In this document: in pieces, positions 2,328 through 59,760 of the stretch | Position numbering within the stretch: position 1 is the stretch's first letter | How the letters are laid out: the number at the start of each line of letters is the position of its first letter | Assembly: GCA_013314815.1 (NCBI GenBank) | Contig: JABUEY010000006.1 | Location: forward strand, 1 to 59,760 | Source: Syntrophobacteraceae bacterium | Lineage (GTDB): Bacteria > Desulfobacterota > Syntrophobacteria > Syntrophobacterales > Syntrophobacteraceae | Direction: 5' to 3' | Length of the DNA: 59,760 bases | Made by a program: the position numbers and the translations under genes | Notes under the pieces: generated by a model | The model's input: only the letters and a program-made list of their open reading frames with translations | Databases searched by the model: none | Told to the model about the DNA's origin: nothing

Positions 2328-5207
2328 ATGATGGAAAAGACGGAAGTCCTCAAGGCAGTACCTTTTTCATTATTCATACTCTGCATTCTTCCGATTATCT
2401 GCAGACATGCACGGCTTGGAAAAACGGAACGAATCCTGATAACGACGGCATTTTCCATCAGATCCGCGCTGGCCATTCTGTTCAGCTACAAAGGATTGGA
2501 ATTTTACAGTCGAGATCCGATTAAGTATGACTATTATGCTACACTCTATTCCAGTGGAACATTCGACTTTCAAAATAGCCTAAATGTCATCTGTCACTCT
2601 ATGTTCGGCGCTGTTCTGTATTTTGTTTTTGGGCCATCGGAAGCCATATGGGCAGTGTTTAACAGCTTTGTCGGTGCATTGACCATAATTGTAGTATTCA
2701 AGATAACTGATAAAATATTTGGCAATAACGAAGCTCGAATAGCAATAATTATTTATACAATATTTCCAAGTTATGTTTTGTTTGCTGCAACCATTCAAAG
2801 GGAAGCAGTAGTTATTTTTTTTATAGCCTGCAGTGTGTGGTACTTCTTGAATTTCATGGAAAAGCAGACTCTGGGGCACTTCATTGGGTATGTAATATCT
2901 TTAATTTTTATAGGTCTCTTGAGACCCCTGGATACGGTGCTTTTGGTGGGTTCCGCGTTTCCTTTCGCAATACTAAAGGTATACTTTTCCGATACAGCAA
3001 GGAAATATCAGCTTTTGAAGCCGTTCATTATATTATTTACTCTTTTCTTCATTGGAGGTGGGATCGGAGTTGTGTTATTGACTCCATTGGGTGAAGCGAT
3101 ACTCAAGAAACTGGCAGAAGACACGCTGGTCAGCGTGGCAAATGCGAGAGCATCTGGTGAGTCATCTTATCTAAGTGATATCAAGTATACATCCTTTTGG
3201 AGTATTATTTACTATATGCCTCTCAAGTTCATCTATTTCACCTTTGGTCCTTTTTTGTGGGGTGCCAAGGGGATCGCAACATTGGCAGCCGCCATGGAGG
3301 GTATCTTCAATTTCATTCTTATCCTTTTTTCATGGCAGGGTTTTAAAGAACTCAAGACCAGGAACGCATATGCCGCCTTCTTTCTGGTTCTGTTCGGGCT
3401 GGGAAGTCTGGCCGCTCAAGGTGCCGTGGATTCTAATTTTGCCACCGCTCTCCGGCACCGGATAAGTTTCACTTTTATTTTCGTGATTTTGGCCACGTAT
3501 AAGCTGGAAAGGAGCAGAGGTTTGTTTGATCTGGTAACCAGGGTCTTGATGTTGAGGCGGCCGATTCTTGTTTCATCGGTTCTGTTGTTCGTGTTCTGCA
3601 GTTCTATGTTTTTCCCCGTTCCGGCTGTGGGCCGGGAAGTGAAGGTCGATAATCTGCCTTATGAAGATGGACAGGTGAGGATATGGAGTGTGGGGCCGGT
3701 TGCGAAGGTGGGAAGATTCGATGACGGAGAAGGCCGCGCCGGGGAAGTGAAGGGAAAGATACAGCTTCGTTCGGCCAGGAATGAATACGAATCGTTTCAG
3801 ATTGTGGTCGGTAACAGGAGCGGAAAGCCGATCGAGCTGAAGAGCTTTTCGGTGAACGAGTTCTCCCTTGAGGGTGACAAGTCTGTGAAGATAGGGAAGG
3901 ATCACGTGGAATCCTTCTATGTCGGGTATGTCAATACGGATTACCCCGACGTGCTCTTCCCCGCCCATGTCGATAAATACCGGCGGGAATTCAAGGACAT
4001 CGAAAGGAAGTGCAACCTGAACCTGTGGCTTTCGGTGTTTGTGCCAGACGAGGCCAGGATGGGGGATTACGAATCAGAGATCGGGATCGAGGTTGGCGAT
4101 ACACGCTATCTGCTGCCTTTGAAACTGAAGGTATGGGATTTCGCCCTTCCTCGGACCACCCATGTCAAAACGCATCTGTTCGCCATCGATCAGAAGGAAG
4201 TGGCCAGGAGATATAAAGTCGATCTGTTTTCCGATGAGTACGAGCGGCTTATTCTCGGTGTATTCGAGGAATACAGGAAGCATCGAATCTCCCCCGGTGC
4301 CGCGACTCCCGTAAACCTGAACCACATGCACAATGCAGGAAAAGACCCCGCATTTCTTGGACAGTACTTCGAAAAGTGGTGCAGCTACTGGGTGGATGCT
4401 GGTCTGGACTGCAACAACATCAACATGCCGCGAAAAGTCGAAAACCTGGGGGACTACAAGTACGTTTACGAGAGTGTGAAGAAGAACGGCTGGTCCGACA
4501 GGGTCTATATCAGGCTCCCCAACGATGAAGCCAAGAAGGGAGTGAAGGCGGAAGAAAACAGGATGTGGGCGAAACGGATCAGAGAATCGATGCCGGGAAT
4601 CAAGCTCCATCACACATTGGGTGGACTCGAAAGAGGCCTCAACACCACACATGTCGACTATTACAGCGGATCAGTGGACATATGGGCGTTTGTCCCGGAT
4701 GCATACCTCAGCGACCGGAACAACCGCCAGGCTTTCGACGACAGGGTGAAGAAGGGCGAGAAGGTTTCATGGTACATCCACAGAAAGGTCAACGTCTGGC
4801 AGCCATGGGATGACTTGAGGTTTTTCTTCTGGGATATGTGGAGACACGACGTGTCGATGGTCACGTTCTGGCGGACGACGTTCTGGAGTCGGCCGGCCAA
4901 GTACAAGAATTTTGCGGGAATTGAGATACCTCGGGTAGCCGAAAAGAAGACATGGAGGGAGAATCGCGGGTTTGTGTCCACGAAGAGTTCGGGCGTGGGC
5001 AACGGCACGCTCTTCTGGCCCGACGACGACAGGATCCTCACCTCCATCCGCCTCGAAGTCATACGAGACGGGATCGAAGACTATGAATACCTGGTACTCG
5101 CCGGAAAGAACGGAATAAAGGTGCAGGCCGGAGACGACATGAAAGGGGATTTTCTTACACAAAGAAATCGGCTGGGAGAGCAGATTGAAAAAAGCGGCAG
5201 GAAATAG
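2328..5207 (+). CDS. Polytopic membrane protein fused to GH123/DUF4091-like glycoside hydrolase domain
   Basis: 959 aa in one frame. Residues 1 to about 432 hold roughly ten hydrophobic segments with the look of a GT39/PMT- or polymerase-type glycan membrane enzyme (early acidic-aromatic stretch SRDPIKYDYY near residue 62). From about residue 440 a soluble domain begins, and its C-terminal third (IWAFVPDAYLSD, FFWDMWRHDVSMVTFWRTTFW, then SIRLEVIRDGIEDYEYL) is the hallmark of DUF4091/GH123-like proteins. The hydrolase part would lie outside the inner membrane. The last membrane segment begins with an in-frame Met (residue 408) and looks like a signal peptide, so this may be two genes joined. 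ATG 2328 follows GAGGTGG; the adjacent ATG 2331 is equally possible. Its end overlaps the next gene by 23 bases. Confidence 0.8.
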   Translation: MMEKTEVLKAVPFSLFILCILPIICRHARLGKTERILITTAFSIRSALAILFSYKGLEFYSRDPIKYDYYATLYSSGTFDFQNSLNVICHSMFGAVLYFVFGPSEAIWAVFNSFVGALTIIVVFKITDKIFGNNEARIAIIIYTIFPSYVLFAATIQREAVVIFFIACSVWYFLNFMEKQTLGHFIGYVISLIFIGLLRPLDTVLLVGSAFPFAILKVYFSDTARKYQLLKPFIILFTLFFIGGGIGVVLLTPLGEAILKKLAEDTLVSVANARASGESSYLSDIKYTSFWSIIYYMPLKFIYFTFGPFLWGAKGIATLAAAMEGIFNFILILFSWQGFKELKTRNAYAAFFLVLFGLGSLAAQGAVDSNFATALRHRISFTFIFVILATYKLERSRGLFDLVTRVLMLRRPILVSSVLLFVFCSSMFFPVPAVGREVKVDNLPYEDGQVRIWSVGPVAKVGRFDDGEGRAGEVKGKIQLRSARNEYESFQIVVGNRSGKPIELKSFSVNEFSLEGDKSVKIGKDHVESFYVGYVNTDYPDVLFPAHVDKYRREFKDIERKCNLNLWLSVFVPDEARMGDYESEIGIEVGDTRYLLPLKLKVWDFALPRTTHVKTHLFAIDQKEVARRYKVDLFSDEYERLILGVFEEYRKHRISPGAATPVNLNHMHNAGKDPAFLGQYFEKWCSYWVDAGLDCNNINMPRKVENLGDYKYVYESVKKNGWSDRVYIRLPNDEAKKGVKAEENRMWAKRIRESMPGIKLHHTLGGLERGLNTTHVDYYSGSVDIWAFVPDAYLSDRNNRQAFDDRVKKGEKVSWYIHRKVNVWQPWDDLRFFFWDMWRHDVSMVTFWRTTFWSRPAKYKNFAGIEIPRVAEKKTWRENRGFVSTKSSGVGNGTLFWPDDDRILTSIRLEVIRDGIEDYEYLVLAGKNGIKVQAGDDMKGDFLTQRNRLGEQIEKSGRK
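3538..3551 (+). promoter_or_regulatory. Possible internal ribosome site and start for the DUF4091 half
   Basis: AGGGTCTTG directly precedes an in-frame ATG at 3549 inside the fused gene. The peptide starting there (MLRRPILVSSVLLFVFC, then FFPVPAVG) has the basic-hydrophobic-cleavage layout of a Sec signal peptide. It could let the hydrolase half be made alone as a secreted protein, or be a relic of the original separate gene. Weak evidence. Confidence 0.25.
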
Positions 5208-6648
5208 ACCGAATGTCGTTGTGATCGTACTCGATACTGCGCGGGCCTTCAACTTTTCCTGCTACGGATACGGCAGGGAGACATCTCCTCACATCGATGC
5301 CGTCGCAAAGGAAGGCGTGCTTTTTCAAAACGCCGTGTCTCCGTCGCCTTGGACGCTTCCTGCTCATGCGTCCCTGTTTACCGGCATGTATCCTTGCTCC
5401 CACGGCTGTACCGAAAAACATAAGATGCTCGGTGACGGAACCACTGTGCTTCCTGAAGTGCTGAAGGGAATCGGGTACAGGACGGTGGGGATTTCCAACA
5501 ACAGTTGGATAAGCAGGAGTTTCGGGTTCGACAGAGGTTTTGACATTTTCATCAACCTCTGGCAATTGGTGCAGTGCGAAACGGACTTCGCGGATCCTTC
5601 CGCAAAGGGCATGGACAAGTACAGAAAGGCCGCGGGGCTTCTCATGCGTGGAAATCCGCTCGTGAACCTTCTGAACGGGATCTATGGGCGCTTTTTCTGG
5701 AGGCGCTACGACTACGGGGCCAGAAGAATCAACAGGATCGTCGGCAGGCTCCTGAAAAATGACCTGGGCAAAGGCCAGCCTTTCTTTCTCTTCATCAACT
5801 ATCTTGAACCGCACCTGGAATATAAGGCTCCCGAGCCTTATTGGGGGCGGTTTCTGCCGGAAGGGGTAGCGAAGAGGGACGCTTTGAGCGTCAATCAGGA
5901 TGCGTGGGCTTATATGGGGGGGCTGGTTCCCATGGGAGAAGCCGACAGGCAGATCCTCACTGCGCTCTACGACGGCGAGATCGCGTACCTGGATCACAGG
6001 ATAGGGGAGCTTTGCGGGATGCTGAGGCGCGGCGGGATGCTGGACGATACACTGCTGATTCTGACCAGCGACCATGGGGAAAATATCCTTGATCACGGTC
6101 TGATGGATCATCAGTACTGTCTTTACGACACTCTCCTCAAGGTTCCCCTGGTACTCCGGCTTCCATCGTACTTCGAAGGGGGAAAATCTGCAGAAGCGGT
6201 TGTACAGACGACGGACATCTTCCCTACTGTCATGGAGGTGCTTGGCATCGAGACGGAGGTGAATGTGCAGGGCAGAAGTCTCTTGCGCGCCAATACCGGC
6301 CGGCTTGCATACTCGGAGTACGCCGCGCCCCAGCCCGGCATGGAAGCCATTTACAGGAAGTACCCTGCCGGGAATTTCCATAGATTCGACAGGAGCCTTT
6401 TATCCGTGAGAAGGGACAACTGGAAGTTCATTTCGGCCTCGGACGGCAAAGAGGAACTGTACGATCTCGGGCAGGATCCATTCGAAGAAAACGATGTGGC
6501 GGGCAGTGTTCCCGAGGTGGAATCGGCATTGCGGGCCGCGTGCGCGGAATGGAAAGAACGATACTGGTCTGAGGATGCGGCCGGCACCGAGGCTTCCATG
6601 TCCGGCGAGATCCGGAAAAGACTCGAAGCCCTGGGTTATTTCAACTAG
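5185..6648 (+). CDS. Sulfatase-fold (AlkP superfamily) hydrolase or transferase
   Basis: 487 aa. Metal-site motifs are present: VVIVLDTAR near residue 13 and LILTSDHGENILDHG near 290. The usual formylglycine motif C/S-x-P-x-R is replaced by T-L-P-A-H (Thr57), so it should not be a formylglycine sulfatase; Thr at this place is used by phosphoethanolamine-type transferases and phosphodiesterases of the superfamily (family knowledge; activity here is inferred). Start is TTG 5185 with GGGAGAG at 5174-5180, inside the end of the preceding gene, which implies translational coupling. It ends in LEALGYFN. No signal peptide was recognised. The likely substrate is a cell-surface glycan or its lipid carrier. 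Confidence 0.85.
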   Translation: MKKAAGNRPNVVVIVLDTARAFNFSCYGYGRETSPHIDAVAKEGVLFQNAVSPSPWTLPAHASLFTGMYPCSHGCTEKHKMLGDGTTVLPEVLKGIGYRTVGISNNSWISRSFGFDRGFDIFINLWQLVQCETDFADPSAKGMDKYRKAAGLLMRGNPLVNLLNGIYGRFFWRRYDYGARRINRIVGRLLKNDLGKGQPFFLFINYLEPHLEYKAPEPYWGRFLPEGVAKRDALSVNQDAWAYMGGLVPMGEADRQILTALYDGEIAYLDHRIGELCGMLRRGGMLDDTLLILTSDHGENILDHGLMDHQYCLYDTLLKVPLVLRLPSYFEGGKSAEAVVQTTDIFPTVMEVLGIETEVNVQGRSLLRANTGRLAYSEYAAPQPGMEAIYRKYPAGNFHRFDRSLLSVRRDNWKFISASDGKEELYDLGQDPFEENDVAGSVPEVESALRAACAEWKERYWSEDAAGTEASMSGEIRKRLEALGYFN

Positions 6649-6784
6649 GCGAGATCGCCTGTGAATGCAACACGTTCCGCGCCCGACTGCCGCGCAGACA
6701 GTAACTCAGACGGTCTGTTGCCCGCGTTCAAGAGAACGCCGTTTGTCTTGGAGCGGTCATCGGTCGAGGTTCGATTCCAACAGG

Positions 6785-7993
6785 ATGAGACTTTTGAATT
6801 CAGGTAATATCAAGCCGAAGATACTCTTCGTTGTTACGGAAGACTGGTTTTTCCTCACTCACCGCCTGGCCCTGGCAAAATATGTCAGGGACCTGGGTTT
6901 CGACGTTTTTGTGGCGACCTCCCCCGGCAGGCTGAGGCAATCCATCGAAAAGGAAGGCCTCATCTTCGTCCCTTTGCTGCTCAGACGAAACAGCAAGAAC
7001 CCTTTCCATGAACTGATGTCCATTCTCCAACTCACCGCGCTGTACAGGCGGATCCGCCCTGACCTGGTGCACCATGTCGCTTTGAAGCCTGTAATGTACG
7101 GGTCCATTGCCGCAAAGTTCGCCCGGCGTCCGGGGGTTGTGAATGCTGTTACGGGGCTCGGCTACACCTTTGTGGGTGGCAGCCTTCGCAAGAGGCTCAT
7201 GAGGAAGTTTCTCGAATTCGGCTGCATATTCGCTCTCTCGGGTTCGAGATCCCGGGTCATCTTTCAGAATCCTGACGACCGTGACCTGTTTATGAGAAAG
7301 GGGCTGGTGGAGTCTTTCCGGTGCAGCCTTATACTGGGGGCGGGAGTAGACACTCGCCGCTTTTCGCCGTCCCCGGAACCTCCGGGGACGCCTGTTATCC
7401 TCTTCCCGTCCCGAATGATCTGGGAGAAAGGGCCTGGAGAAGTGGCTGCCGCCGCGAGGATTCTAAAGCGGCGCGGGATCGATTTCAGGGTTGTGCTTGC
7501 GGGGCGCATAGACTTCGGGAACCCTTCGTCCATTTCCGAGGCCCAGTTGAACAGGTGGCGGGATGAGGGCGTTGCCGACTGGCTGGGCCACGTGGACGAC
7601 ATGCCCGGCCTTTATGCGTCGTCTCACATCGTCTGTCTGCCGACGTACTACCGCGAGGGCATTCCGCTGGCACTGATCGAGGCGGCATCGAGCGGGCGCC
7701 CGGTGGTCACTACGGACAGTCCGGGATGCAGGGAAATCGTCAGGCACAATGTGAACGGACTGCTGATTCCGCCAAGGGACACTCAGGCACTGGCGGATGC
7801 TCTGCAGATGCTCCTGGAAAACGCTTCCCTGCGGAAAGAAATGGGCCGCAGCGGGCGTGAGATCTGCTGCCGGAGCTTTGCCAAGGAGACGGTAATCCGC
7901 CAGACGGTTGAGGTGTACAAAGCGGCTCTCGATGGCAAGTGGCCGGCATCCTTTGTCTCGCCGCGTCGACTTCATTCTGTCCCGAACATCTGA
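6785..7993 (+). CDS. Glycosyltransferase family 4/1
   Basis: 402 aa, GT-B fold. The N-terminal acceptor domain starts KILFVVTEDWFFLTHR; the C-terminal nucleotide-sugar domain has REGIPLALIEAASSGRPVV (the E-x7-E type motif) and NVNGLLIPPRD. Such enzymes add sugars to undecaprenyl-linked oligosaccharides on the cytoplasmic face of the membrane. The frame is open from 6665, but residues before ATG 6785 are not family-like, so 6785 is preferred; its ribosome site (ACAGG) is weak. It lies between two AlkP-superfamily genes in the polysaccharide cluster. Confidence 0.87.
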   Translation: MRLLNSGNIKPKILFVVTEDWFFLTHRLALAKYVRDLGFDVFVATSPGRLRQSIEKEGLIFVPLLLRRNSKNPFHELMSILQLTALYRRIRPDLVHHVALKPVMYGSIAAKFARRPGVVNAVTGLGYTFVGGSLRKRLMRKFLEFGCIFALSGSRSRVIFQNPDDRDLFMRKGLVESFRCSLILGAGVDTRRFSPSPEPPGTPVILFPSRMIWEKGPGEVAAAARILKRRGIDFRVVLAGRIDFGNPSSISEAQLNRWRDEGVADWLGHVDDMPGLYASSHIVCLPTYYREGIPLALIEAASSGRPVVTTDSPGCREIVRHNVNGLLIPPRDTQALADALQMLLENASLRKEMGRSGREICCRSFAKETVIRQTVEVYKAALDGKWPASFVSPRRLHSVPNI

Positions 7994-10822: not shown

Positions 10823-11462
10823 GCCGGCTTGACCTTGAAAGCATTCGGGTACCGGGAACCCGCTGTGCTGAACCTCTTCGCAGGCACGGAGATTTTTTGT
10901 ATTCCAAGAGTTTCTTGTACAAATGATAAAAAGGTGGTAGTGTCGTTCGACAGCTTTTTCAGATCAGATATGCCGCTTCCAGGTATCATGCAGTGATAAG
11001 GGGGGACAGGATATACGCATCCTTCGAAAGTCGGCAGTTCTTGATGTCTTACAAGTCAGTTCCGGTGCCGCCGGAAATAGGATGCCGACTGTCTTCAGCA
11101 GGAAGTAGGGGAGGGCTTGCAATCCTGGGTGGGGAGGCCTGCTCGGAGGTTGCGCGCACAGGTGACATCTCCTGAACCTGCAAGAGTGACCGGATGAACC
11201 TTTTGCATGGCCGTCGAAAGCATTTCGTGGAACGATCCGGGTTTGCAGGCTGTCCTGCGAGAAGGGTTTTTTTATTTGTACGGCAGGGTACCGGTTGGCT
11301 GCATGGGATTCGACAGCCTGCATCGCGAGTCGCTGTGCATGTATCGATGGTCCGATCGATGGCGTCGTTTTGGCGGCAACAAGAGGGTTGTGAGGCAATT
11401 GAGCCGGTACCCGTTTTCAGGCAGATCCGGCTGATATCCTGATCACCAAGAGCTTACCAGGC
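10823..11462. other. 640-base stretch without a supported gene
   Basis: Between the Wzz-like gene and the WecA-like gene. Short open frames exist on both strands (for example 11207-11434 plus) but lack ribosome sites and family-like sequence. The stretch 10890-10935 is AT-rich and could hold a promoter, but no good -35/-10 pair was found. Probably a regulatory leader or a decayed gene. Confidence 0.4.
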
Positions 11463-12968
11463 ATGACGATAAAGATACTTTCCATCTTTTTCATCAGTTT
11501 GACTTTGGCACTGATCTTCGGGCCTTTTGTAAAACATTTTGCCTTCAGTCGCAACCTCATGGACCGGCCTTCATCCCGAAAAGTCCATGCCGAGCCTGTT
11601 CCCCGCGTCGGCGGCATCATTCTCTACCTGGCATGCCTGATCCCCTTCGTAATCGGCATCGTGGTCACTCCCGCCGTAGCGACGGATCGCTTTCCCATGC
11701 ATTCGGTCTACTGGATGCTCAGCGGCGCAACCCTGGTGTTCCTCCTGGGGCTTGTGGATGATGTCCATGGGCTCAGGCCTGGAATCAAGTTCGTATTTCA
11801 AGGTGTGGCGGCATTCCTTGCCTATCACGGAGGCATCTACTTCGAGTTTGTGGAGCTGCCCTGGGGACCGTCTTTCTCGCTCGGCGTGTTCTCCATGCCC
11901 TTCACCATCTTCTGGTTTCTCCTCGTCATCAACGCCATCAACCTGATCGACGGCCTCGACGGGCTCGCTGCGGGAGTCAGCCTCTTTGTGGCGCTGGTAT
12001 TGCTCACCATGAGTCTCCTGGGAGGCAAGTACCTGGTATCCCTGGGGCTCGCCGCTCTTGCCGGCGCCTGCCTGGGCTTTCTGCGTTACAATTTCAATCC
12101 CGCTTCTATCTTCATGGGGGATTCGGGAAGTTATTTTCTCGGTTTCATGCTGGCGTCCCTCAGCGTCCTTGGATCCATGAAAAGCCAGGCGACGGTGGCC
12201 ATCATCATTCCCATTGTTGCCCTGGGAGTGCCTCTCATGGACACGCTGCTCGCCCCCATAAGACGGTTCATCATCGGTCAGGACCTCTTCCAGCCGGACA
12301 AAAGACACATTCACCACCAGCTCCTGAGAAAGGGCCTGACGCATCGCAAAGCCGTGTTATGGATGTACGGCGCCACGATTTTTCTCGGTATTTTTGCACT
12401 GCTCATCGTCAACACAAGGGACGAAAGGGCGGGCTTCATTCTCATAATCCTGGCGGCCCTGGTCATCGTGGGCATCCGCAAGCTCGGGTACCTCGAATAT
12501 TTCGCCGTGGACAAGATGATCGGCTATTTCAGGGACGTCACGGATGAAATGGGCATCAAGAGGGACCGAAGAACCTTCTTGAACAGGCAGATTGAAATCA
12601 AGCAGGCAAAGACGACCGACGAACTGTGGGATCGAGTGATTGAAGCTCTCGAACAACTGCGCATCGACGATGCCCGGATGCACTTCAACGGGTTGTCCGA
12701 AAAGCTGGACGCAAACGGCCCGTACACGTGGAAGGCAAGAGAAATCAGCGTGGAACCGTCCGAATGTGAGTACTGCGTTCTTTCCCTGGATCTGCCCCTC
12801 CTGAACAACGGTAAGAGTTATGGAGTGCTGCATCTGAGAAAAGACCTTGTTCGAGATCCCATCACTCCTTACACCCTGAGGCGGATCGAGCATTTGAGAA
12901 GAAGCGTGGTGAACAAGATACAGGAACTCGAGGAAGAAGCGGAAGCCAACCTGCACATGAACACCTGA
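11463..12968 (+). CDS. Polyprenyl-phosphate sugar-1-phosphate transferase (WecA/TagO family) with C-terminal extension
   Basis: 501 aa. It transfers a sugar-1-phosphate from a UDP-sugar to undecaprenyl phosphate, the first membrane step of glycan assembly. Family motifs: RKVHAEPVPRVGG (about 39), LGLVDDVHGL (about 95, the DD site), NAINLIDGLDGLAAG (about 157), MGDSGSYFLG (about 218) and DKRHIHHQLLRKG (about 279). About ten membrane segments fill residues 1-345. Residues 350-501 form a soluble cytoplasmic extension ending in a helical stretch; it is GAF-like in feel but not recognised with certainty. Typical WecA/TagO proteins are about 350 aa, so the tail is an addition. ATG 11463 starts directly before the family-like N-terminus. 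Confidence 0.9.
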   Translation: MTIKILSIFFISLTLALIFGPFVKHFAFSRNLMDRPSSRKVHAEPVPRVGGIILYLACLIPFVIGIVVTPAVATDRFPMHSVYWMLSGATLVFLLGLVDDVHGLRPGIKFVFQGVAAFLAYHGGIYFEFVELPWGPSFSLGVFSMPFTIFWFLLVINAINLIDGLDGLAAGVSLFVALVLLTMSLLGGKYLVSLGLAALAGACLGFLRYNFNPASIFMGDSGSYFLGFMLASLSVLGSMKSQATVAIIIPIVALGVPLMDTLLAPIRRFIIGQDLFQPDKRHIHHQLLRKGLTHRKAVLWMYGATIFLGIFALLIVNTRDERAGFILIILAALVIVGIRKLGYLEYFAVDKMIGYFRDVTDEMGIKRDRRTFLNRQIEIKQAKTTDELWDRVIEALEQLRIDDARMHFNGLSEKLDANGPYTWKAREISVEPSECEYCVLSLDLPLLNNGKSYGVLHLRKDLVRDPITPYTLRRIEHLRRSVVNKIQELEEEAEANLHMNT

Positions 12969-13046
12969 CGGATTTCCCCCTTCGACCCTGTCGCTGCAAC
13001 TCCTGCCTGTATTCGCAGGAATTCGCAGGGCCGAATGTCGATTCCT

Positions 13047-13922
13047 TCATTTCCCCAGCCCAGCCAAACCATGTGAACCGTTTCGGATGAACTCCAGCGC
13101 GAGCTTTGCCGTGGGGCGATGGTGGAGCATGGCGATATGGCTTATCGGTGACGTTTCATGCAGCGTCCATTCGAGGCGATCGGTGAGGGAGGCTTCAGCG
13201 GGCAGGACCATGTTGTCGAGCGGGCTGTAAACGGCGAGGCGGGGAATGCCCGGCGCGGCTGGCAGTCGTTCGATTTCTGCAATGAGGGGTCCCTTGTATC
13301 GAAGACTTTGAGCCAGTGTGCCGAGCCCCAGGACGGCAAGTTTCGACCCCTGGTGGGGTGTGCCCAGAGTCACAACGGCTGCAACCGGGCTTCGGCGATT
13401 CGGGTCGTCCACATAGGCGCGGATCAGGAGCCCTCCCAGGCTGTGGCCCACAAAGACCGGGGGTCTTCCAGCAGAGAGCTCCGTCACCTGTCGGGCCAGC
13501 CGGTCCAGCTGTTCGAGGATTTCGTGGAAAGAACAATTCCAGCTGCTGTAGTTGAGCGCATGGATGTTCCTGAAGCCTTCGGCTCTGAACCAGCGGCGGA
13601 AGAGAATCCAGGCGCCGGCGTTGTGATACAGACCATGAACGAAAATCACGGGAGGCGAGGGGCAGGGTGGATCCGTCTTCGAATACCGTACGGATCTTGA
13701 GAAGCCCAGAGGATAGGTCAGCAAGACAAAGGCAAGGCTCAGGGAGCTGGCGAGGATTCCACGAGCCATCATTCTCCCGATTCTTCCTTTCGAAAGGTCC
13801 CGCAGGTGATCGAGGTGCCTGCTGTTTGCGGCTTCAAACCAGAAGAATGCGTAGGAGAGGCTGGAGAAGACGAGAACAACAAAGGCGAAGCAGGATGCGA
13901 GAACAAGAATGAATGCAGTCAA
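13047..13922 (-). CDS. Membrane-anchored alpha/beta hydrolase (lipase-like)
   Basis: 291 aa. Two hydrophobic N-terminal segments (about 3-27 and 54-72) anchor the protein; the hydrolase domain follows. VIFVHGLYHN marks the oxyanion region, GHSLGG gives nucleophile Ser161, YSPLDNMV gives Asp236 and SHIAMLHH the His. It resembles PGAP1/LipA-type lipases or esterases. The start is TTG 13922, with AAAGGG upstream; it begins 2 bases after the stop of the HAD gene, so the two are translationally coupled. Substrate unknown. Confidence 0.82.
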   Translation of the reverse strand: MTAFILVLASCFAFVVLVFSSLSYAFFWFEAANSRHLDHLRDLSKGRIGRMMARGILASSLSLAFVLLTYPLGFSRSVRYSKTDPPCPSPPVIFVHGLYHNAGAWILFRRWFRAEGFRNIHALNYSSWNCSFHEILEQLDRLARQVTELSAGRPPVFVGHSLGGLLIRAYVDDPNRRSPVAAVVTLGTPHQGSKLAVLGLGTLAQSLRYKGPLIAEIERLPAAPGIPRLAVYSPLDNMVLPAEASLTDRLEWTLHETSPISHIAMLHHRPTAKLALEFIRNGSHGLAGLGK

Positions 13923-51714: not shown

Positions 51715-52446
51715 GTGGCCGAACAGGAAACGCATCTCGACGGACTCCAGCAGGTCCTGGATTACCGGTTCAAGAAGCCGGGCCTGCTTCAGCAGGCCCT
51801 GATTCATCGATCCTTTCTCCATGAGAATCCCCAGGTCAACGAAGCAGACAACGAAACTCTCGAGTTCCTCGGCGACGCCGTTCTCGGGCTTGCCATCAGC
51901 CATCTGCTCCTTAGACAGTACCCGGAATGCAATGAGGGCGATCTCTCGCGCCTCAGATCGGCGATTGTCAATGAACGCGAACTGGCAAGGATCGCCCAGG
52001 ATCTCGGTTTCGGCGACTACCTCATGCTGGGCAAGGGTGAAGAACTGACCGGAGGCAGGCAGAAGACCTCGCTGCTTGCCGATACTCTTGAAGCGGTCCT
52101 GGCGGCGATCTACCTCGACGGAGGCCTCGATGCGGCCATCGATGTCATCAAGCGTCTTTTTCACGCATACCTGGATATCGAGCAGGAACAGCACCCGTTG
52201 AGGACCCTCGACAAGGACTACAAGACCCAGTTGCAGGAGTTGACCCAGGCCAGGTTCAAACTCACACCCGTCTATTCCCTCGATGCGGAGGAAGGGCCGG
52301 ACCACGACAAGACTTTTCATATGAGTGTCGCGCTTGAAAATCGAGTCCTGGCTACGGGTTCCGGGAAGAGCAAGAAAGAAGCGCAACAGGAGGCGGCCTG
52401 CAAGGCACTTGACGTGATCGGAAGGCAGCCTGACCCGGATGACTGA
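51715..52446 (+). CDS. rnc: Ribonuclease III
   Basis: 243 aa. Double-strand RNA endonuclease for rRNA and mRNA processing. Catalytic domain signature NETLEFLGDAVLGL (about 44-57) with the acidic pair, and LLADTLEAVLAAIYLDGG (about 120) with the second Asp/Glu; a C-terminal dsRNA-binding domain (DYKTQLQELTQ, then GSGKSKKEAQQEAACKAL). Start is GTG 51715 with AGGA upstream. Three bases before the next gene, in the order rnc - radical SAM - era. Confidence 0.96.
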   Translation: MAEQETHLDGLQQVLDYRFKKPGLLQQALIHRSFLHENPQVNEADNETLEFLGDAVLGLAISHLLLRQYPECNEGDLSRLRSAIVNERELARIAQDLGFGDYLMLGKGEELTGGRQKTSLLADTLEAVLAAIYLDGGLDAAIDVIKRLFHAYLDIEQEQHPLRTLDKDYKTQLQELTQARFKLTPVYSLDAEEGPDHDKTFHMSVALENRVLATGSGKSKKEAQQEAACKALDVIGRQPDPDD

Positions 52447-52449
52447 TAC

Positions 52450-53547
52450 ATGACTGCCAGGACTCGGATCTATCCCGTCTTCCTTCCCCATGCCGGATGC
52501 CCCTTTCAATGCGTGTACTGCAACCAGGACAGGGTGGTGTCGCCAAACCCGGCGGGTTCTTCTCAAAAGGAATTGCTGGGCAGAGGGATCGAAGACATGC
52601 GGGCACTCGCCCGGCAGTCACGGTTGAGTGGGATGCCGGGCGAACTCGCGTTTTACGGCGGCACTTTCACCTCGCTGCCCGAGCAGAGCCTGCGCAGAAT
52701 TCTCTGTTTTGCTCTACCGCTGATCCGTGAAGGGATCTTTTCGGGAATCCGATTTTCCACTCGACCGGATTCCATGACATCTTCCACCTGCAGGATTCTT
52801 GACGAGTATCCGGTCCAGACTGTCGAACTGGGCGTTCAAAGCATGTCCCGCGAGGTTCTGGAAAAGAGCCTGCGCGGGTACGGTGTGGATGCGGTTTTGG
52901 AGTCGGCGTCGACGGTGAAAAGACATGGATGGCGCCTGGGCATCCAGATGATGGCCGGGCTTCCCGGCGACAGTCGGGGGACCTTTCTGGATTCCATTGC
53001 CCAGGTCGTCCGGCTGAAACCCGACTTTGTGCGCATCTACCCGACTCTTGTCCTTTCCGGAACGGCACTCGCACAATGGTACCGCGGAGGCACCTACCGG
53101 CCGCTCAAAATCGAGGAAGCCCTGGACTGGTGCGCCGCGGCTCATCAGATGCTCACCGCCGCCTCCATACCCGTCGCGCGCATGGGCCTTCACGGAGACC
53201 CGGAACTGGAAAAACCGGGCGGAATTCTTGCCGGTCCCTACCACCCGGCATTCGGATACCTGGTGAAGTGCCGCCTTTGGCGCAATCGTGTGGATGAGCT
53301 TCTTCAGGCAGTGCATCCGCTGGACGGCCTTGCCGATCTTACAATCCGGGTGCCCGCGAGATTTATCAGCGAGGCCGCTGGACCCGGCCGCTCCAATATT
53401 GCCTGGTGGCAGCAGAAATGGGGAATCGAAAAAATCAGACTGCTCCAGGATGCGACACTCGAGCCACTGCGGTTCGAACCACGCCTCGAACCATCTCCAC
53501 AATTCCAGCCTGCCGCGTGCAGGAACTCGATGCATGAACAATCGTGA
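52450..53547 (+). CDS. Radical SAM protein, Elp3/COG1243-like
   Basis: 365 aa. The radical SAM motif is GCPFQCVYCNQD (C17-x3-C21-x2-C24), with GELAFYGGTFTSLP and VELGVQSMSREVLEKSLRGY following, the pattern of the Elp3 N-terminal half and its bacterial relatives. No C-terminal acetyltransferase domain. Its place between rnc and era suggests a part in RNA modification, as does the family, but this is inference. ATG 52450. Confidence 0.85.
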   Translation: MTARTRIYPVFLPHAGCPFQCVYCNQDRVVSPNPAGSSQKELLGRGIEDMRALARQSRLSGMPGELAFYGGTFTSLPEQSLRRILCFALPLIREGIFSGIRFSTRPDSMTSSTCRILDEYPVQTVELGVQSMSREVLEKSLRGYGVDAVLESASTVKRHGWRLGIQMMAGLPGDSRGTFLDSIAQVVRLKPDFVRIYPTLVLSGTALAQWYRGGTYRPLKIEEALDWCAAAHQMLTAASIPVARMGLHGDPELEKPGGILAGPYHPAFGYLVKCRLWRNRVDELLQAVHPLDGLADLTIRVPARFISEAAGPGRSNIAWWQQKWGIEKIRLLQDATLEPLRFEPRLEPSPQFQPAACRNSMHEQS

Positions 53548-53589
53548 ATGACCTGCAACGGAAATTCGAAGGGAGGCCTGCTGAAGCTT

Positions 53590-54516
53590 ATGTCATCTCT
53601 TGCTGCACCCGGTTTCAAATCCGGCTATGTTGCCCTTATCGGAGCCCCCAACGTTGGGAAGTCCACCCTGCTCAACAGGTTGTTGAACCAGAAGATCTCG
53701 ATTACCGCCGAGAAGCCTCAGAGCACCAGGAACCGCATCCCGGGAATCCTCAACGGACCCGGATTTCAAATCATTTTCGTGGATACCCCCGGTATTCACA
53801 GGGCGCGCGACGAATTCAACCGGGTACTTGTAGATACTGCGCTCTCCACCCTGGGAGAGGCGGACGTCATCTGTCTTCTTATCGAAGCAACGGATCCCGA
53901 CCGGGATATCAACGGATACATCCTGGACAACCTGAGAAATGTCGATACACCGGTCATTCTTGCGATCAACAAGGTGGACCGCCTGCGAAGCAAAAGCGAC
54001 CTGCTTCCCGTTATGGAACGCTATGCCCGGATTCGAGATTTTCACTCCATCGTGCCCGTCTCGGCCTTGACCGGAGACGGAGTGGGAAGGCTTCTCGATG
54101 AAATCACCGGGCTTCTGTCCGAAGGCCCCCGGTATTATCCGGAGGATTATGTGACGGATCAGCCTGAGAGGTTCCTGGTGGCTGAAATCATTCGTGAAAA
54201 GGTGTTCCATCTGGCTCACCAGGAAATCCCTTACGCCGTGGCCGTAACGATCGAGAAATTTACCGAGATTCCAGAGAGTATGCGAATCGACATAGAGGCC
54301 ACCATCCACGTGGAACGCGATTCGCAAAAGGGCATCCTGATAGGCAGAAAAGGACAGATGCTGAAGGAAATCGGCACACAGGCGCGGCGGGACATCGAAA
54401 GCCTGCTCGGCTGCCGGATCTTTCTCGGCCTTTTCGTTCGAGTCTGGAAGAACTGGAGAAAGGATCCGAGGGCTTTGGCCGAGTTCGGTTACCGAACCCC
54501 GGGGGGGAATCGCTAG
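53590..54516 (+). CDS. era: GTPase Era
   Basis: 308 aa. Assembly factor of the 30S subunit. G1 GAPNVGKST, G2 KPQSTRNRIPG, G3 DTPGIHRARD, G4 NKVDRL, and the C-terminal KH domain with IEATIHVERDSQKGILIGRKG and MLKEIGTQARRDIE. The start is best taken as ATG 53590 just before the GTPase fold; ATG 53548 overlapping the upstream stop has no ribosome site, and the GGGAGG at 53568 is 13 bases away. Confidence 0.95.
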   Translation: MSSLAAPGFKSGYVALIGAPNVGKSTLLNRLLNQKISITAEKPQSTRNRIPGILNGPGFQIIFVDTPGIHRARDEFNRVLVDTALSTLGEADVICLLIEATDPDRDINGYILDNLRNVDTPVILAINKVDRLRSKSDLLPVMERYARIRDFHSIVPVSALTGDGVGRLLDEITGLLSEGPRYYPEDYVTDQPERFLVAEIIREKVFHLAHQEIPYAVAVTIEKFTEIPESMRIDIEATIHVERDSQKGILIGRKGQMLKEIGTQARRDIESLLGCRIFLGLFVRVWKNWRKDPRALAEFGYRTPGGNR

Positions 54517-55162: not shown

Positions 55163-55330
55163 AGAGGGGATTTGCCCCATCGACACCAGATTTTCCCGCG
55201 AAAGTCACCTGCTGTTCACCCATCCTTCACCGTTTTCATCTAGCCTGGAACTCGGGATAGGTCGGCAATCTCCGGCAGTCTGTGGAACTTGTATAGAGTT
55301 GATCATACAGAACAGAAAGGAAATGTATTG

Positions 55331-57781
55331 ATGAAGGAAATGGGCTTTTGCTTCCGGAAATCATCGAACCTTAAACTCGTGCGGCCTTCAACTCTCGACG
55401 CGGTCATCGATCGTCTCGGGATACGCGTGGGGACATCAGATCGTTTTGTGGAAACCCTTCCTTTTTCGGAAAACGACACCACGGCGGGTTCGGAAAACGA
55501 ACTTCAAACCGTGGTGTTGGGATCAAGGTGGAACGTGGATTTGCCTATAACGATCGAAGCATCCAGCTACTTCTCCAATGTTGTCAGACGAATCGGCAGA
55601 GGTGAAACGTCGCCGAAAGCTGCGGTGGATCTCGATCGGTTTTTGAATGAGAATCCGCGAAATGTCTGGGAGAACAGTTGGGTCCGGTTGCCGCTGCATG
55701 TGCTCGGGCCGCGTACTCGGGATGTCCTGAGCGTCGATCTTCTTGCCGACAGAAGGAGCCCCGACGGAGGTCTTCGTGCCGACAAGGAACGCTTCTTCTT
55801 TATTCGGAAAGGAGATCCATGGATTCGCATTCCGGTAAGCTACCTTCTCAAGCTGAGCCTGGCCGATGCCGTCTACTCGGAAGACAGTCTTCCCGCCTCC
55901 ATCGTACGGACCGGCGAAAGACTTTTCGATCATTTCCTTAATGATAACACGTCACCCGAGACTTTCTCCTTTCACGTCATCGTTCCACGACCGGGCCTGC
56001 GATTGGGCAGATCGATCGCGCGGGAGGCGTCCAAGCGTTTTCTGCTCACTCAGGTCCTTGCCATGTATGCAAACGAACGTTTCCTGCTCCGTCAATCAGG
56101 GCAGCGTGTGATCATCTATTTTGCCCCTCACCCGCCTGTTCGTCAGAAGGAATTGAACGACTGCATATCGGATGCGTTCTACAGGGAACTGTTCATGAGT
56201 CCCTGTCTATCGGGTTGGGCCAGGGGTGAGACAAAGCACGATTACATGTGCCTCTGTCACCAGGTTCTCAGCCGCAGCCAACTGAACGCCGTGGCAAAGC
56301 TTCGAGAGGCCGGAATCATCACTCGCAACCTCGTGACTCTGCCGAACATCTCGAACACGAGCCTGGCCAATAATGGCACTCACCTGAGCCTCGGCAGTCT
56401 GAAGCTGACCCGCCTGCTGTCCGACGAACACTCCCCGTTGAATGCGACGGATGAAAAGCTGGCAGGCGACCTCGTCATCAAAATCGTCGAACATTTTCTG
56501 CCTCTTTTTGTGGGTACGTACAGTGCGGCTCCATACCGCATCGATTTTTCCGATTTCCATCCCGAGAAGCTTCTCGGGTTCCTGCCTCATGAACTCGACT
56601 ATACCCACCTCAGAATGGTCTGGCGACGATGGAAAGGGAAAAGCCGGTCGAAAATCCTCGGGCGACCGCTCACCCCGTTCGGTCCCAAATGGATGGATCG
56701 ATTTATGACCACCCTGTTTCGTCTCCAGGGAGACTTCGTGCCGGATTTTCGGCTCCTGGACTATTTCGTATCCCTGATGAGTACGGAGCGCAGTCCGGCT
56801 CTCGATGGGAAACCGGGAAACGGTGAAAGGCTGAAAAAGGACCTGGCAGATTTGGGGATCTTCGACTCAAGGATGGCGCTCTATCTGCTCTACAGGCTCA
56901 GAGAATGTGAAGTCATGGGGTACAGCGGATTCGAGGGGCGTATGTATAGCCTGTTCGAAAGCATGGAATCGGATTTCGGAAGCGCGGGAGAGGTTCAAAA
57001 CCTCCTGAACGCACTTGCATTCAAATACATCGCCAGGGGCAGAGTAACGCACTCGCACATTCCCGACAGTCCGTTCTCTGAAAGCGAAAGAAGGCAGATC
57101 ATTTTCGGGACCGCCATAGGTCTGCCCACCTTTTTTGTACGTGCGGATTCCCGGAATGCTTTTCTGCAGGGAATCGTCAGGCGGTGCCGGCGCGTGAGGT
57201 TGAGCAGGAGGTACCCGGGTTATCTCAGAGTGTACAATATCGAGTACAGAAGGGCTCTTGTGCAGACGCTTTTCGAAGATGCGGAGGATCTCATTGAAAT
57301 GTTCCATATGAAAGATACCCTGGAGGAACTGCTGTCGAGAATCGAATACCCGGCTACCCGTTCAGTGGCGGGCAGGCTGACTGCAGCCATCCTGGAGGAA
57401 ACGGGAGCAAAGAGTGCGTTCGATCTGAACGGGAAGGAATTTAACATGGCCGCGGAGAATCATTACAGGAGTGCCTTGAGAGAAAAGAACATCGAAGAGG
57501 CCGTCCACTTTCTAGTGGATGACCTTCGGGCCTTGAAGGATGAAGAATTCAACGAAGAGCTTCGCGCAATGGCCCTGGACCAGTTCAATCTCACCGAATT
57601 CCTGATGAATGCGAACAGCAGCCTGGCCGACGAATGTCTGCACGCGGCCGACTTGAGAAGGCTGATCCATTTGCTGCTCCTGACCATCCACAGGGACATG
57701 GAGGAATCCGAGGCTGCGATCCAGGCACGAAGAAAGGCATCGTCCCATGAAACACCAGTATATCGAGCGGTACACGAATAG
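55331..57781 (+). CDS. Unrecognised large protein, first gene of a lipid-like operon
   Basis: 816 aa from ATG 55331, with AAAGGAA 10 bases upstream. I do not recognise the family. No signal peptide and no membrane segment of convincing length were seen; the protein is rich in Arg, Leu and charged helices, and the last 200 residues are strongly helical. Possible landmarks are VIVPRPGLRLGRSIAREASKRF (about 220, written here as parts), IIYFAPHPPVRQKEL (about 260) and WARGETKHDYMCLCHQVLSRS (about 295). Its stop overlaps the start of a phosphatidylserine-decarboxylase-like gene by 35 bases, so it is part of one translation unit with it. A cytoplasmic enzyme or scaffold acting on lipids is only an inference from neighbours. 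Confidence 0.75.
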   Translation: MKEMGFCFRKSSNLKLVRPSTLDAVIDRLGIRVGTSDRFVETLPFSENDTTAGSENELQTVVLGSRWNVDLPITIEASSYFSNVVRRIGRGETSPKAAVDLDRFLNENPRNVWENSWVRLPLHVLGPRTRDVLSVDLLADRRSPDGGLRADKERFFFIRKGDPWIRIPVSYLLKLSLADAVYSEDSLPASIVRTGERLFDHFLNDNTSPETFSFHVIVPRPGLRLGRSIAREASKRFLLTQVLAMYANERFLLRQSGQRVIIYFAPHPPVRQKELNDCISDAFYRELFMSPCLSGWARGETKHDYMCLCHQVLSRSQLNAVAKLREAGIITRNLVTLPNISNTSLANNGTHLSLGSLKLTRLLSDEHSPLNATDEKLAGDLVIKIVEHFLPLFVGTYSAAPYRIDFSDFHPEKLLGFLPHELDYTHLRMVWRRWKGKSRSKILGRPLTPFGPKWMDRFMTTLFRLQGDFVPDFRLLDYFVSLMSTERSPALDGKPGNGERLKKDLADLGIFDSRMALYLLYRLRECEVMGYSGFEGRMYSLFESMESDFGSAGEVQNLLNALAFKYIARGRVTHSHIPDSPFSESERRQIIFGTAIGLPTFFVRADSRNAFLQGIVRRCRRVRLSRRYPGYLRVYNIEYRRALVQTLFEDAEDLIEMFHMKDTLEELLSRIEYPATRSVAGRLTAAILEETGAKSAFDLNGKEFNMAAENHYRSALREKNIEEAVHFLVDDLRALKDEEFNEELRAMALDQFNLTEFLMNANSSLADECLHAADLRRLIHLLLLTIHRDMEESEAAIQARRKASSHETPVYRAVHE

Positions 57782-58775
57782 GGTATGGACCGAAAGACTC
57801 TTCGCAGACCCTTGGGTCAAACTTATCTACTCGAAGGCTGAGGCAAACCCCGGCTTGCTGCTCAGGATGCTGACCAGCGGATGGTTTTCCAGGGCACTTG
57901 CCAGCCTTCTCTACGACTCAAGACTCGGCTCACCGTTCAACAGAAACCGGCACTTTTTCGACTCCACGCACGTTGACTTAACGGAGTGCGCCGATGAACC
58001 GGGAAGGTGGAAGACTTCGCGGGAGGTGTTTGAGCGAAAGATCCGTTACTGGGAATGCAGACCCATGTGTCGGGAGCCTTCGGCCGTCGTGTCCCCCGCG
58101 GATGCACGTATCCTTGTCGGTTCTTTGCTCCGTCGTTCATCCATCTTCATCAAAGGCAAGTTCTTCGAACTCGATGAACTCCTGGGAAGGAAAAAGGAAT
58201 TCGTCGATGCATTCCGTGACGGCGACTTCGCCGTTCTAAGGTTGACCCCGGAAAAGTACCATTACAACCATACCCCGGTTGCAGGAGAAGTGGTCGACAT
58301 CTATGAAGTGCAGGGGATGTACCACTCGTGCAATCCTGGAGCGATTGTGCGAACGGCGGCCTCGTTGTCGAAGAACAGAAGAGTAGTCACGATCATCGAT
58401 ACGGATGTGTATCGAGGCAGCCGAGTCGGGCTGGTGGCCATGATAGAAATTGTGGCACTCATGATAGGTGATGTAGTGCAGTGTTACAGTACCCGAAGGT
58501 ATGATTCTCCTGCTCCTGTCGGCAAGGGGATGTTCCTGGAGAAGGGAGTGCCCAAGAGCCGGTACCGGCCTGGAAGCAGTACGGATGTCCTTTTGTTTGA
58601 AAGGGAGCGAATCGACTTTGCGCGGGACATCCTGTTCAACATGCATCGGCCGGGAATCGAGAGCCGTTATTCCGAGGGGTTCGGCAGGCCGCTTGTCGAG
58701 ACGGATATTCGAGTACGTTCCCTGATCGCGTCCCGTAAGAATGCGTCTGCCGCGAAATGTGAGTTACCTCGATGA
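57747..58775 (+). CDS. Divergent phosphatidylserine-decarboxylase-like protein
   Basis: 342 aa. Family landmarks: VSPADARIL (the PADG-like site with Asp119), YHYNHTPVAGEV (active-site His region, about 171-182) and RPGSSTDVLLFE (about 274-285), at the place of the usual LGST self-cleavage motif. Cleavage before Ser277 would give the pyruvoyl group; G-S-S-T instead of G-S-T is unusual. The family makes phosphatidylethanolamine or decarboxylates related substrates. ATG 57747 lies inside the upstream gene. Confidence 0.8.
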   Translation: MKHQYIERYTNRVWTERLFADPWVKLIYSKAEANPGLLLRMLTSGWFSRALASLLYDSRLGSPFNRNRHFFDSTHVDLTECADEPGRWKTSREVFERKIRYWECRPMCREPSAVVSPADARILVGSLLRRSSIFIKGKFFELDELLGRKKEFVDAFRDGDFAVLRLTPEKYHYNHTPVAGEVVDIYEVQGMYHSCNPGAIVRTAASLSKNRRVVTIIDTDVYRGSRVGLVAMIEIVALMIGDVVQCYSTRRYDSPAPVGKGMFLEKGVPKSRYRPGSSTDVLLFERERIDFARDILFNMHRPGIESRYSEGFGRPLVETDIRVRSLIASRKNASAAKCELPR

Positions 58776-58790
58776 AGGAGAAAAGGAAAG

Positions 58791-59651
58791 ATGGAAAATG
58801 TCCTGTTCATCCTGTTTCTGGCTGTCATGATCAGCCTCCTGTTCCAATGGGCTTTCAGAAACCTGCCCAATGAACAATGGCAGATTCTGGCCGCTGTCCC
58901 TGTTTCCAGAATGGGCCCTGAGCGGTGGAAAAGCATCAACTTGACCTACTATGGCGTATTCAGCGCAAACGCGACCGTGGCTGCAACGGCCCTGTTCTTC
59001 TTTCTTTGCGGAGCCGCAAAGGTGCCCTTCGCCGGGTCCGCCGGCGTTGCAGGGATTCTGTTTCTGTGTTGCATGCCTGCGTCAAAAATCATAGCAAGGC
59101 TCATCGAAGGAAGGCCTTATACATTCACGGCAGGAGGAAGCTTCTTTGTCGGCACGCTGCTCAGTCCCTGGGTCACAGCACTGGTCAACCGTGTGGGGGA
59201 AAGCCTGGGCGGCGCATCGATACCGGCAGAGCCCTGCCTGGCAGCCCTGGCGATCGCATGTCCGATGGGAGAGGGATTGGGGCGCCTCGCGTGCATCAGC
59301 TTCGGGTGCTGCTATGGAAAGCCGCTATCCCAGGTTTCTCCCCGGGTTCGAAGAATTTTCGAGTCTCACTGCTTCGTCTTCGTGGGAAGAACGAAAAAGA
59401 TCGCCTATGAAAGTGGACTGGAAGGAGAAAAGGTGGTGCCCATTCAGGCGGTGACTGCCGTTCTTCTTGTTCTGACAGCTCTTTCGAGTGCCTTCCTGTT
59501 CCTGCGCACTTCTTATCTGGCGGCTTTCATCGTGTCCAGCGTGGCAGCGCAGGGATGGAGGTTCGTGTCGGAGACATTGAGAGCGGACTACAGGGGGGAG
59601 GGAAAGGTATCCGATTACCAGATCATGGGAATGATCGAGACTGTGTCGTAA
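58791..59651 (+). CDS. Divergent Lgt-like (prolipoprotein diacylglyceryl transferase family) membrane protein
   Basis: 286 aa with about seven membrane segments. The Lgt signature is visible as GEGLGRLACISFGCCYGKP (about 160-178) and a late ETLRADYRG that fits the region with the second essential Arg. At the place of the Lgt HGG loop, which carries a needed His, the sequence reads FTAGGSFFVG without His. It may therefore not transfer diacylglyceryl groups to lipoproteins but act on another lipid. ATG 58791 follows AAGGAGAAAAGGAAAG, 15 bases after the decarboxylase-like gene. Confidence 0.78.
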   Translation: MENVLFILFLAVMISLLFQWAFRNLPNEQWQILAAVPVSRMGPERWKSINLTYYGVFSANATVAATALFFFLCGAAKVPFAGSAGVAGILFLCCMPASKIIARLIEGRPYTFTAGGSFFVGTLLSPWVTALVNRVGESLGGASIPAEPCLAALAIACPMGEGLGRLACISFGCCYGKPLSQVSPRVRRIFESHCFVFVGRTKKIAYESGLEGEKVVPIQAVTAVLLVLTALSSAFLFLRTSYLAAFIVSSVAAQGWRFVSETLRADYRGEGKVSDYQIMGMIETVS

Positions 59652-59719
59652 TTGTAGGGCCTGGGAGTGGATTTTTATGGTTTAATAGGAATAAAAAATA
59701 GGCAAATCGGAAGGTTATG

Positions 59720-59748
59720 TGGTATAGTGTAGCCCTGAGAGCAGGAGG
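59720..59748 (+). promoter_or_regulatory. Extended -10 promoter and ribosome site for a gene leaving the window
   Basis: TGG-TATAGT (59720-59728) is an extended -10 with no clear -35. AGGAGG (59743-59748) follows, and the last three bases of the window (59758-59760) are ATG, 9 bases further on. The next gene therefore starts at the right edge; nothing of its product can be seen. Confidence 0.55.
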
Positions 59749-59760
59749 AAAAGGGCTATG

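Follow-up and report, generated by a model that had tools for sequence, protein, structure and literature searches.

Phosphate stress in anoxic sediments is read from phosphorus-free lipids, and many sulfate reducers and syntrophs have lipids that have been assigned only in part. To our knowledge, none of the pathways for OlsF ornithine lipids, PlcP/Agt glycolipids or BtaAB betaine lipids includes an Lgt-fold transferase, a phosphatidylserine decarboxylase (PSD) or a ligase of the glutamine synthetase (GS) fold. Desulfovibrio alaskensis replaces >90% of its phospholipids with glycolipids and ornithine lipids when phosphate is limiting (PMC5193443). The active site of Escherichia coli Lgt faces the periplasm (PMC4728403); its His103 mutants are inactive, and His103 has been assigned to the acceptor side of the reaction, with R143 and R239 on the donor side (PMC4728403, PMC8689077). 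Here we analyzed a 59,760-nucleotide stretch of DNA from a Syntrophobacteraceae bacterium (contig JABUEY010000006.1 of assembly GCA_013314815.1; hereafter the window), which ends in three genes on the + strand, labelled A, B and C in window order. Gene A (55331..57781) encodes a predicted carboxylate-amine ligase with the fold of GS, gamma-glutamylcysteine synthetase and Pup ligase (816 aa from the ATG at 55331, or 830 aa from an alternative TTG at 55289), gene B (57747..58775) a 342-aa PSD-type (pyruvoyl) enzyme and gene C (58791..59651) a 286-aa Lgt-fold membrane protein. An initial reading from the letters alone (the sequence-only reading) had proposed these open reading frames as an undescribed lipid system; all three are present at those positions, with a 35-base overlap between B and the end of A, and C starting 15 bases past B. 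We favor, with slightly better than even confidence, that the trio forms one pathway that remodels membrane lipids under phosphate scarcity.

A, B and C are one conserved unit, linked far above chance. We compared 54 loci with all three genes, surveyed 395 Desulfobacterota genomes, and used 44 A-positive genomes to check for psd, lgt and PhoU. All 54 loci kept the order A>B>C on one strand, with the genes mostly overlapping or nearly touching. Strong matches to A occurred in 43 of the 395 genomes (~11%), and the C family, defined by a C profile score >90 bits and well separated from ordinary Lgts (≤44 bits), in 44. Both were present in 43 genomes, A without C in none and C without A in one (P = 6e-57), and in that genome (G170) A is cut off and B reaches the contig end. 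Conservation as a set, on which the sequence-only reading had staked its proposal, thus holds. Among 148 relatives, 17 carried A, two of them as fragments only. Mean pairwise identity was 51% for A, 55% for B and 44% for C, and the pairwise distance matrices of the three proteins correlate (r 0.67–0.79), therefore A, B and C evolve together. A plasmid search gave no match to A, and an all-phyla pattern scan of low sensitivity returned deltaproteobacterial loci only. No paper on the trio was found in a literature search whose coverage excluded most subscription journals.

The psd- and lgt-like genes of the trio are additional to the housekeeping copies. The genome of the window has a standard psd on contig C62 (225 aa, directly followed by what appears by eye to be a phosphatidylserine synthase gene) and, on contig C44, a standard lgt (264.6 bits) that has the HGG loop. 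Across the A-positive genomes, another PSD was present in 44/44 and another strong Lgt in 42/44, which rules out the trio as the housekeeping psd and lgt. The expectation that standard copies lie elsewhere was thereby borne out, which, given that the set is also kept as a unit, supports the view of the trio as a lipid pathway distinct from normal phosphatidylethanolamine (PE) and lipoprotein synthesis.

The trio is also linked to phosphate-starvation genes far above chance. Neighbors were found by clustering across loci, with 15–20 kb read per locus, and then confirmed with curated models; they included PstS, PstC, PstB, PhoU, PhoH2, alkaline phosphatase, phosphonoacetate hydrolase (PhnA), PhnD and phosphonatase. 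PhoU lay within 10 kb of A in 12/44 carriers, where position alone would give 0.5, and within 30 kb in 16/44 carriers from 13 families (1.6 expected). For ordinary lgt genes of the same genomes, used as a matched control, the corresponding counts were 0/42 and 2/42 (P = 1e-4 and 3e-4). Lipid genes adjoin the trio as well. Nine carriers have an OlsF-like ornithine-lipid synthase, matching nearly all of NF052615 at a score below its cut-off, and in five of them it lies within 20 kb of the trio (0.1 expected). Anti-correlation between the trio and ornithine-lipid genes was not seen (12/43 carriers vs 67/352 others, P = 0.22). In seven loci (L008, at 5110-7542, L013, L014, L019, L041, L097 and L114) a GT4 glycosyltransferase gene stands beside the operon, and in L097 it lies inside it, between B and C. 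Its best family is GlcN-phosphatidylglycerol synthase, and it is possibly a phosphate-starvation glycolipid synthase. The GT4 protein is ~810 aa long, and by eye its N-terminal half opens with a metal-binding-like HxH stretch.

Gene C resembles Lgt on the donor side and departs from it on the acceptor side. Its PF01790 match is borderline (25.2 bits vs a cut-off of 24.9), and hhalign gave no significant alignment between C and two Lgts. For a full-length C homologue, the model (predicted local distance difference test (pLDDT) 89.7) has a single clear PDB match, E. coli Lgt (5azb, Z 12.8 over 232 residues; next Z 5.0). The equivalents of the donor-pocket residues are conserved: R165 (R143) in 53/54 homologues, within the counterpart of the Lgt signature, GRLACISFGCCYG (residues 164-176, 59280..59318), and R257, E261 and R264 (R239, E243 and R246; residues 257-264, 59559..59582) in 54/54. 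The Y26 equivalent, Y54, is present in 53/54. The place of the H103-G-G loop is taken by T-F-T-A-G-G (residues 111-116, 59121..59138), and the position of His103 is V, I or A in 54/54 homologues, in line with the earlier remark that the histidine of the HGG loop is missing. Further changes relative to E. coli Lgt are a Cys for N146 and mostly Thr for Y235. Together, the PF01790 score at the cut-off, the predicted fold and the residue matches suggest that C is an Lgt relative; the simplest reading is that it would carry out Lgt donor chemistry on a different acceptor. The copy in the window is short by ~64 C-terminal residues, all 53 relatives being 342–387 aa long. Past its stop at 59651 there are 109 bases to the contig end, which encode nothing like the missing tail. 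This final segment (59652-59760) is AT-richer and resembles no relative's C-terminal extension.

Gene B is a clear member of PF02666 (121 bits). Asp90, His144, His147 and Ser254 of E. coli Psd align to D119, H172, H175 and S278 of B, all invariant in 54/54. The sequence-only reading had regarded the G-S-S-T cleavage site as an oddity; the self-cleavage site P-G-S-S-T (residues 275-279, 58569..58583) has its second serine, Ser278, aligned to Ser254 and is a usual G-(x)-S-T site, so the oddity falls away. B also has a conserved extra N-terminal part of ~90 aa (HQYIER...) and scores far under the best NCBIfam equivalog cut-offs, and on these sequence features its substrate may therefore differ from phosphatidylserine (PS). 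Three family-f1 carriers have a third PSD gene at a distance of 6 to 20 kb from the trio (G006:C47:102753-103370, G009:C89:35036-35653 and G016:C46:22266-22883).

Gene A had been described as large and unknown, and at 816 aa with no match in Pfam or NCBIfam even at E = 1 it remains so at the sequence level; searches with 29 members gave nothing meaningful, and searches of PDB sequences gave nothing. Structure prediction, proposed as a check in the sequence-only reading, was more informative: the AlphaFold2 model from a 29-sequence alignment (pLDDT 86, predicted template modelling score 0.90) resembles a GS-fold carboxylate-amine ligase. Foldseek matches were weak, with gamma-glutamylcysteine synthetase ranked first and PafA third, and VIA-align gave GshA (Z 17.6, 413 residues), YbdK (16.8), PafA (14.7) and Dop (14.5), followed by glutamine synthetases at about 8 (GS 8.4) and the next unrelated chain at 4.3. 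The features listed for the carboxylate-amine ligase superfamily by Iyer et al. (PMC2588565) are GhExE or Ex[EH] in core strand 1, [HD]x[NH] in strand 4 and Ex[RK]x2D in strand 6. In A, the strand 1 motif is kept as the GxExE metal/ATP motif (residues 53-57, 55487..55501; predicted strand 50-63), with G53, E55 and E57 invariant in 54/54 and the residue after the glycine not always hydrophobic. The candidate strand 4 counterpart is GxH (residues 349-351, 56375..56383; predicted strand 350-356; compare GVH150 of E. coli GshA), in which G349 and H351 are invariant and the second position of the superfamily motif is Ser353 (HxS, not [HD]x[NH]). The candidate strand 6 counterpart, E535-x-R537 (residues 535-537, 56933..56941; predicted strand 533-539; compare E328-x-R330 of GshA), is invariant, with an invariant Ser540 at the Asp position. 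A is best read as a putative new, distant family of the carboxylate-amine ligase superfamily. A would probably ligate, rather than hydrolyse as Dop does.

A constant fourth gene, sought among the neighbors of the trio loci, was not found; DksA-like, HAD-like, GT4 and OlsF-like genes join the trio in some lineages only. In Smithella-like loci (L009:11032-11451, L011, L015, L017, L018 and L021), a DksA/TraR-type zinc-finger gene (PF21157, PF01258) sits between B and C, and in L043 (8931-9392) one lies directly past C. Two loci (L005:11142-12557 and L007:11547-12959) encode, between B and C, a protein of 470 aa that weakly resembles HAD acid phosphatases (PF03767, below cut-off). Only in L045 (G111) is the gap between A and B longer than 100 bases; two minus-strand open reading frames (11357-13657), one of them CapA-like by eye, lie in it. 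One complete genome from the genus of carrier G007 lacks C and has an A relic of 37 residues with a stop codon (G015:C1:3048036-3048146; L039 / L054), a sign of recent operon loss. In the window, the genes upstream of A (51715-54516) are by eye ribonuclease III, a radical SAM protein and GTPase Era, none phosphate-related.

Because of the folds and conserved residues, functions can be proposed for A, B and C. C would bind a phospholipid donor as Lgt does and transfer its diacylglyceryl part to a small amino-acid-like acceptor rather than to a lipobox protein, a step that would free the phosphorylated head group. B would form its pyruvoyl group and, in the way PSD acts on PS, decarboxylate a head group resembling serine (or cysteine). 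A would use ATP to couple a carboxylate with an amine (or would break such a bond, as Dop does), either amidating the head group or making the acceptor. We infer that the product is a lipid, and it is likely a phosphorus-free, amide-bearing diacylglyceryl aminolipid that replaces PE. Cysteine is a reasonable first guess, by analogy, for the acceptor of C, as both Lgt and the GshA-type ligases act on it. In a more specific version that we put forward only tentatively and consider rather improbable as it stands, the trio would make a new phosphorus-free lipid class: C would pass the diacylglyceryl part of a phospholipid on to the thiol (or hydroxyl or amine) of a small amino-acid acceptor, B would decarboxylate the product to a phosphate-free PE-like amine (e.g. 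S-diacylglyceryl-cysteamine), and A would add an amino acid or first make a gamma-glutamyl-cysteine-like acceptor, with phosphate recovered directly from the membrane.

Several points weigh against a phosphate-scarcity pathway of this kind. The ligase assignment of A derives from its predicted fold and motifs, and in an hhalign comparison with 11 GCS2 sequences the GxExE strand alone aligned (P = 0.058). About half of the 54 loci, the window included, have no phosphate-related gene in the 15–20 kb read. Upstream of A, the best matches to a Pho box (CTGTCAT-N4-CTGTCAT) were barely above random windows, with none in the window; the consensus is that of E. coli, from which the PhoB site in these bacteria may deviate. 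A should be cytosolic and the Lgt site periplasmic, so an intermediate would need to cross the membrane. Finally, C of the window is apparently truncated, either truly or through an assembly artefact, and may be non-functional.

The explanation that best survives besides this one, possible if on the unlikely side, is a pathway that retains phospholipid. Here B would make a dedicated pool of PE (or an analogue) from PS, A would amidate its amine with an acyl or amino-acid group, and C would modify or move the product, so that phosphate is kept and the change serves as a stress adaptation. All PSD catalytic residues are kept in B, and the fold of A suits a ligase that forms an amide with a primary amine. 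Spending phosphate under starvation, however, clashes with the Pho neighborhood, and the type of reaction expected of C takes off the phosphorylated head group. Less probable still is that a stand-alone ligase, a decarboxylase and a lipid transferase make a lipidated small molecule for secretion (a natural product of the lipopeptide type), in which case the link to phosphate would reflect only regulation. The patchy distribution of the trio (11% of the sampled genomes) and the A relic in the complete genome of a carrier's genus would be usual for accessory metabolism; yet the trio has no conserved exporter, nonribosomal peptide synthetase or tailoring gene with it, and its preferred neighbors are phosphate uptake genes and known phosphorus-free lipid genes.

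We give little credence to a pupylation-like protein lipidation, in which A would ligate a protein side-chain or C-terminal carboxylate to an amine of B-made PE, with C adding or removing diacylglyceryl. The model of A does match the Pup ligase PafA and the depupylase Dop (Z 14.7 and 14.5), but GshA and YbdK match it as well or better, no small modifier open reading frame is conserved beside the operon, and no member of Pup_ligase (PF03136) occurs in 25 carrier genomes, A itself having no Pfam match. That B and C are spare or divergent psd and lgt copies doing ordinary reactions, with A unrelated, is very improbable: both are recognised by their families, but ordinary psd (44/44) and lgt (42/44) genes are present in the carriers, C has no counterpart of the His that Lgt needs, and C never occurs without A and B, save at one contig end.

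If the remodelling pathway that we favor is real, it would be a new route from phospholipid to membrane lipid with release of phosphate, built from an unclassified ligase together with enzymes of the PSD and Lgt types and present in ~11% of the sampled Desulfobacterota genomes, and Lgt-fold enzymes would have a role beyond lipoprotein maturation. Its physiological setting would be that of the known lipid remodelling under phosphate limitation (ornithine lipids via OlsF, glycolipids via PlcP/Agt and betaine lipids via BtaAB), with OlsF-like and GT4 genes beside the trio. Compared with E. coli Lgt, C is alike in predicted fold and in the equivalents of R143, R239, E243, R246 and Y26, whereas it lacks His103, has Cys for N146 and mostly Thr for Y235, and carries an extra N-terminal helix and a C-terminal segment. 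B shares with Psd the PF02666 family, the Asp, the two His and the pyruvoyl Ser, and differs from it in the ~90-aa N-terminal part, the NCBIfam scores below cut-off and the constant partners A and C. The modelled fold of A is like those of GshA, YbdK/GCS2 and PafA/Dop over 338–413 aligned residues, with GxExE, GxH and ExR invariant in A; in contrast to these enzymes, A is ~820 aa long with large extra segments, belongs to no detectable sequence family, has HxS where the superfamily motif is [HD]x[NH], and lacks the Asp that would follow ExR.

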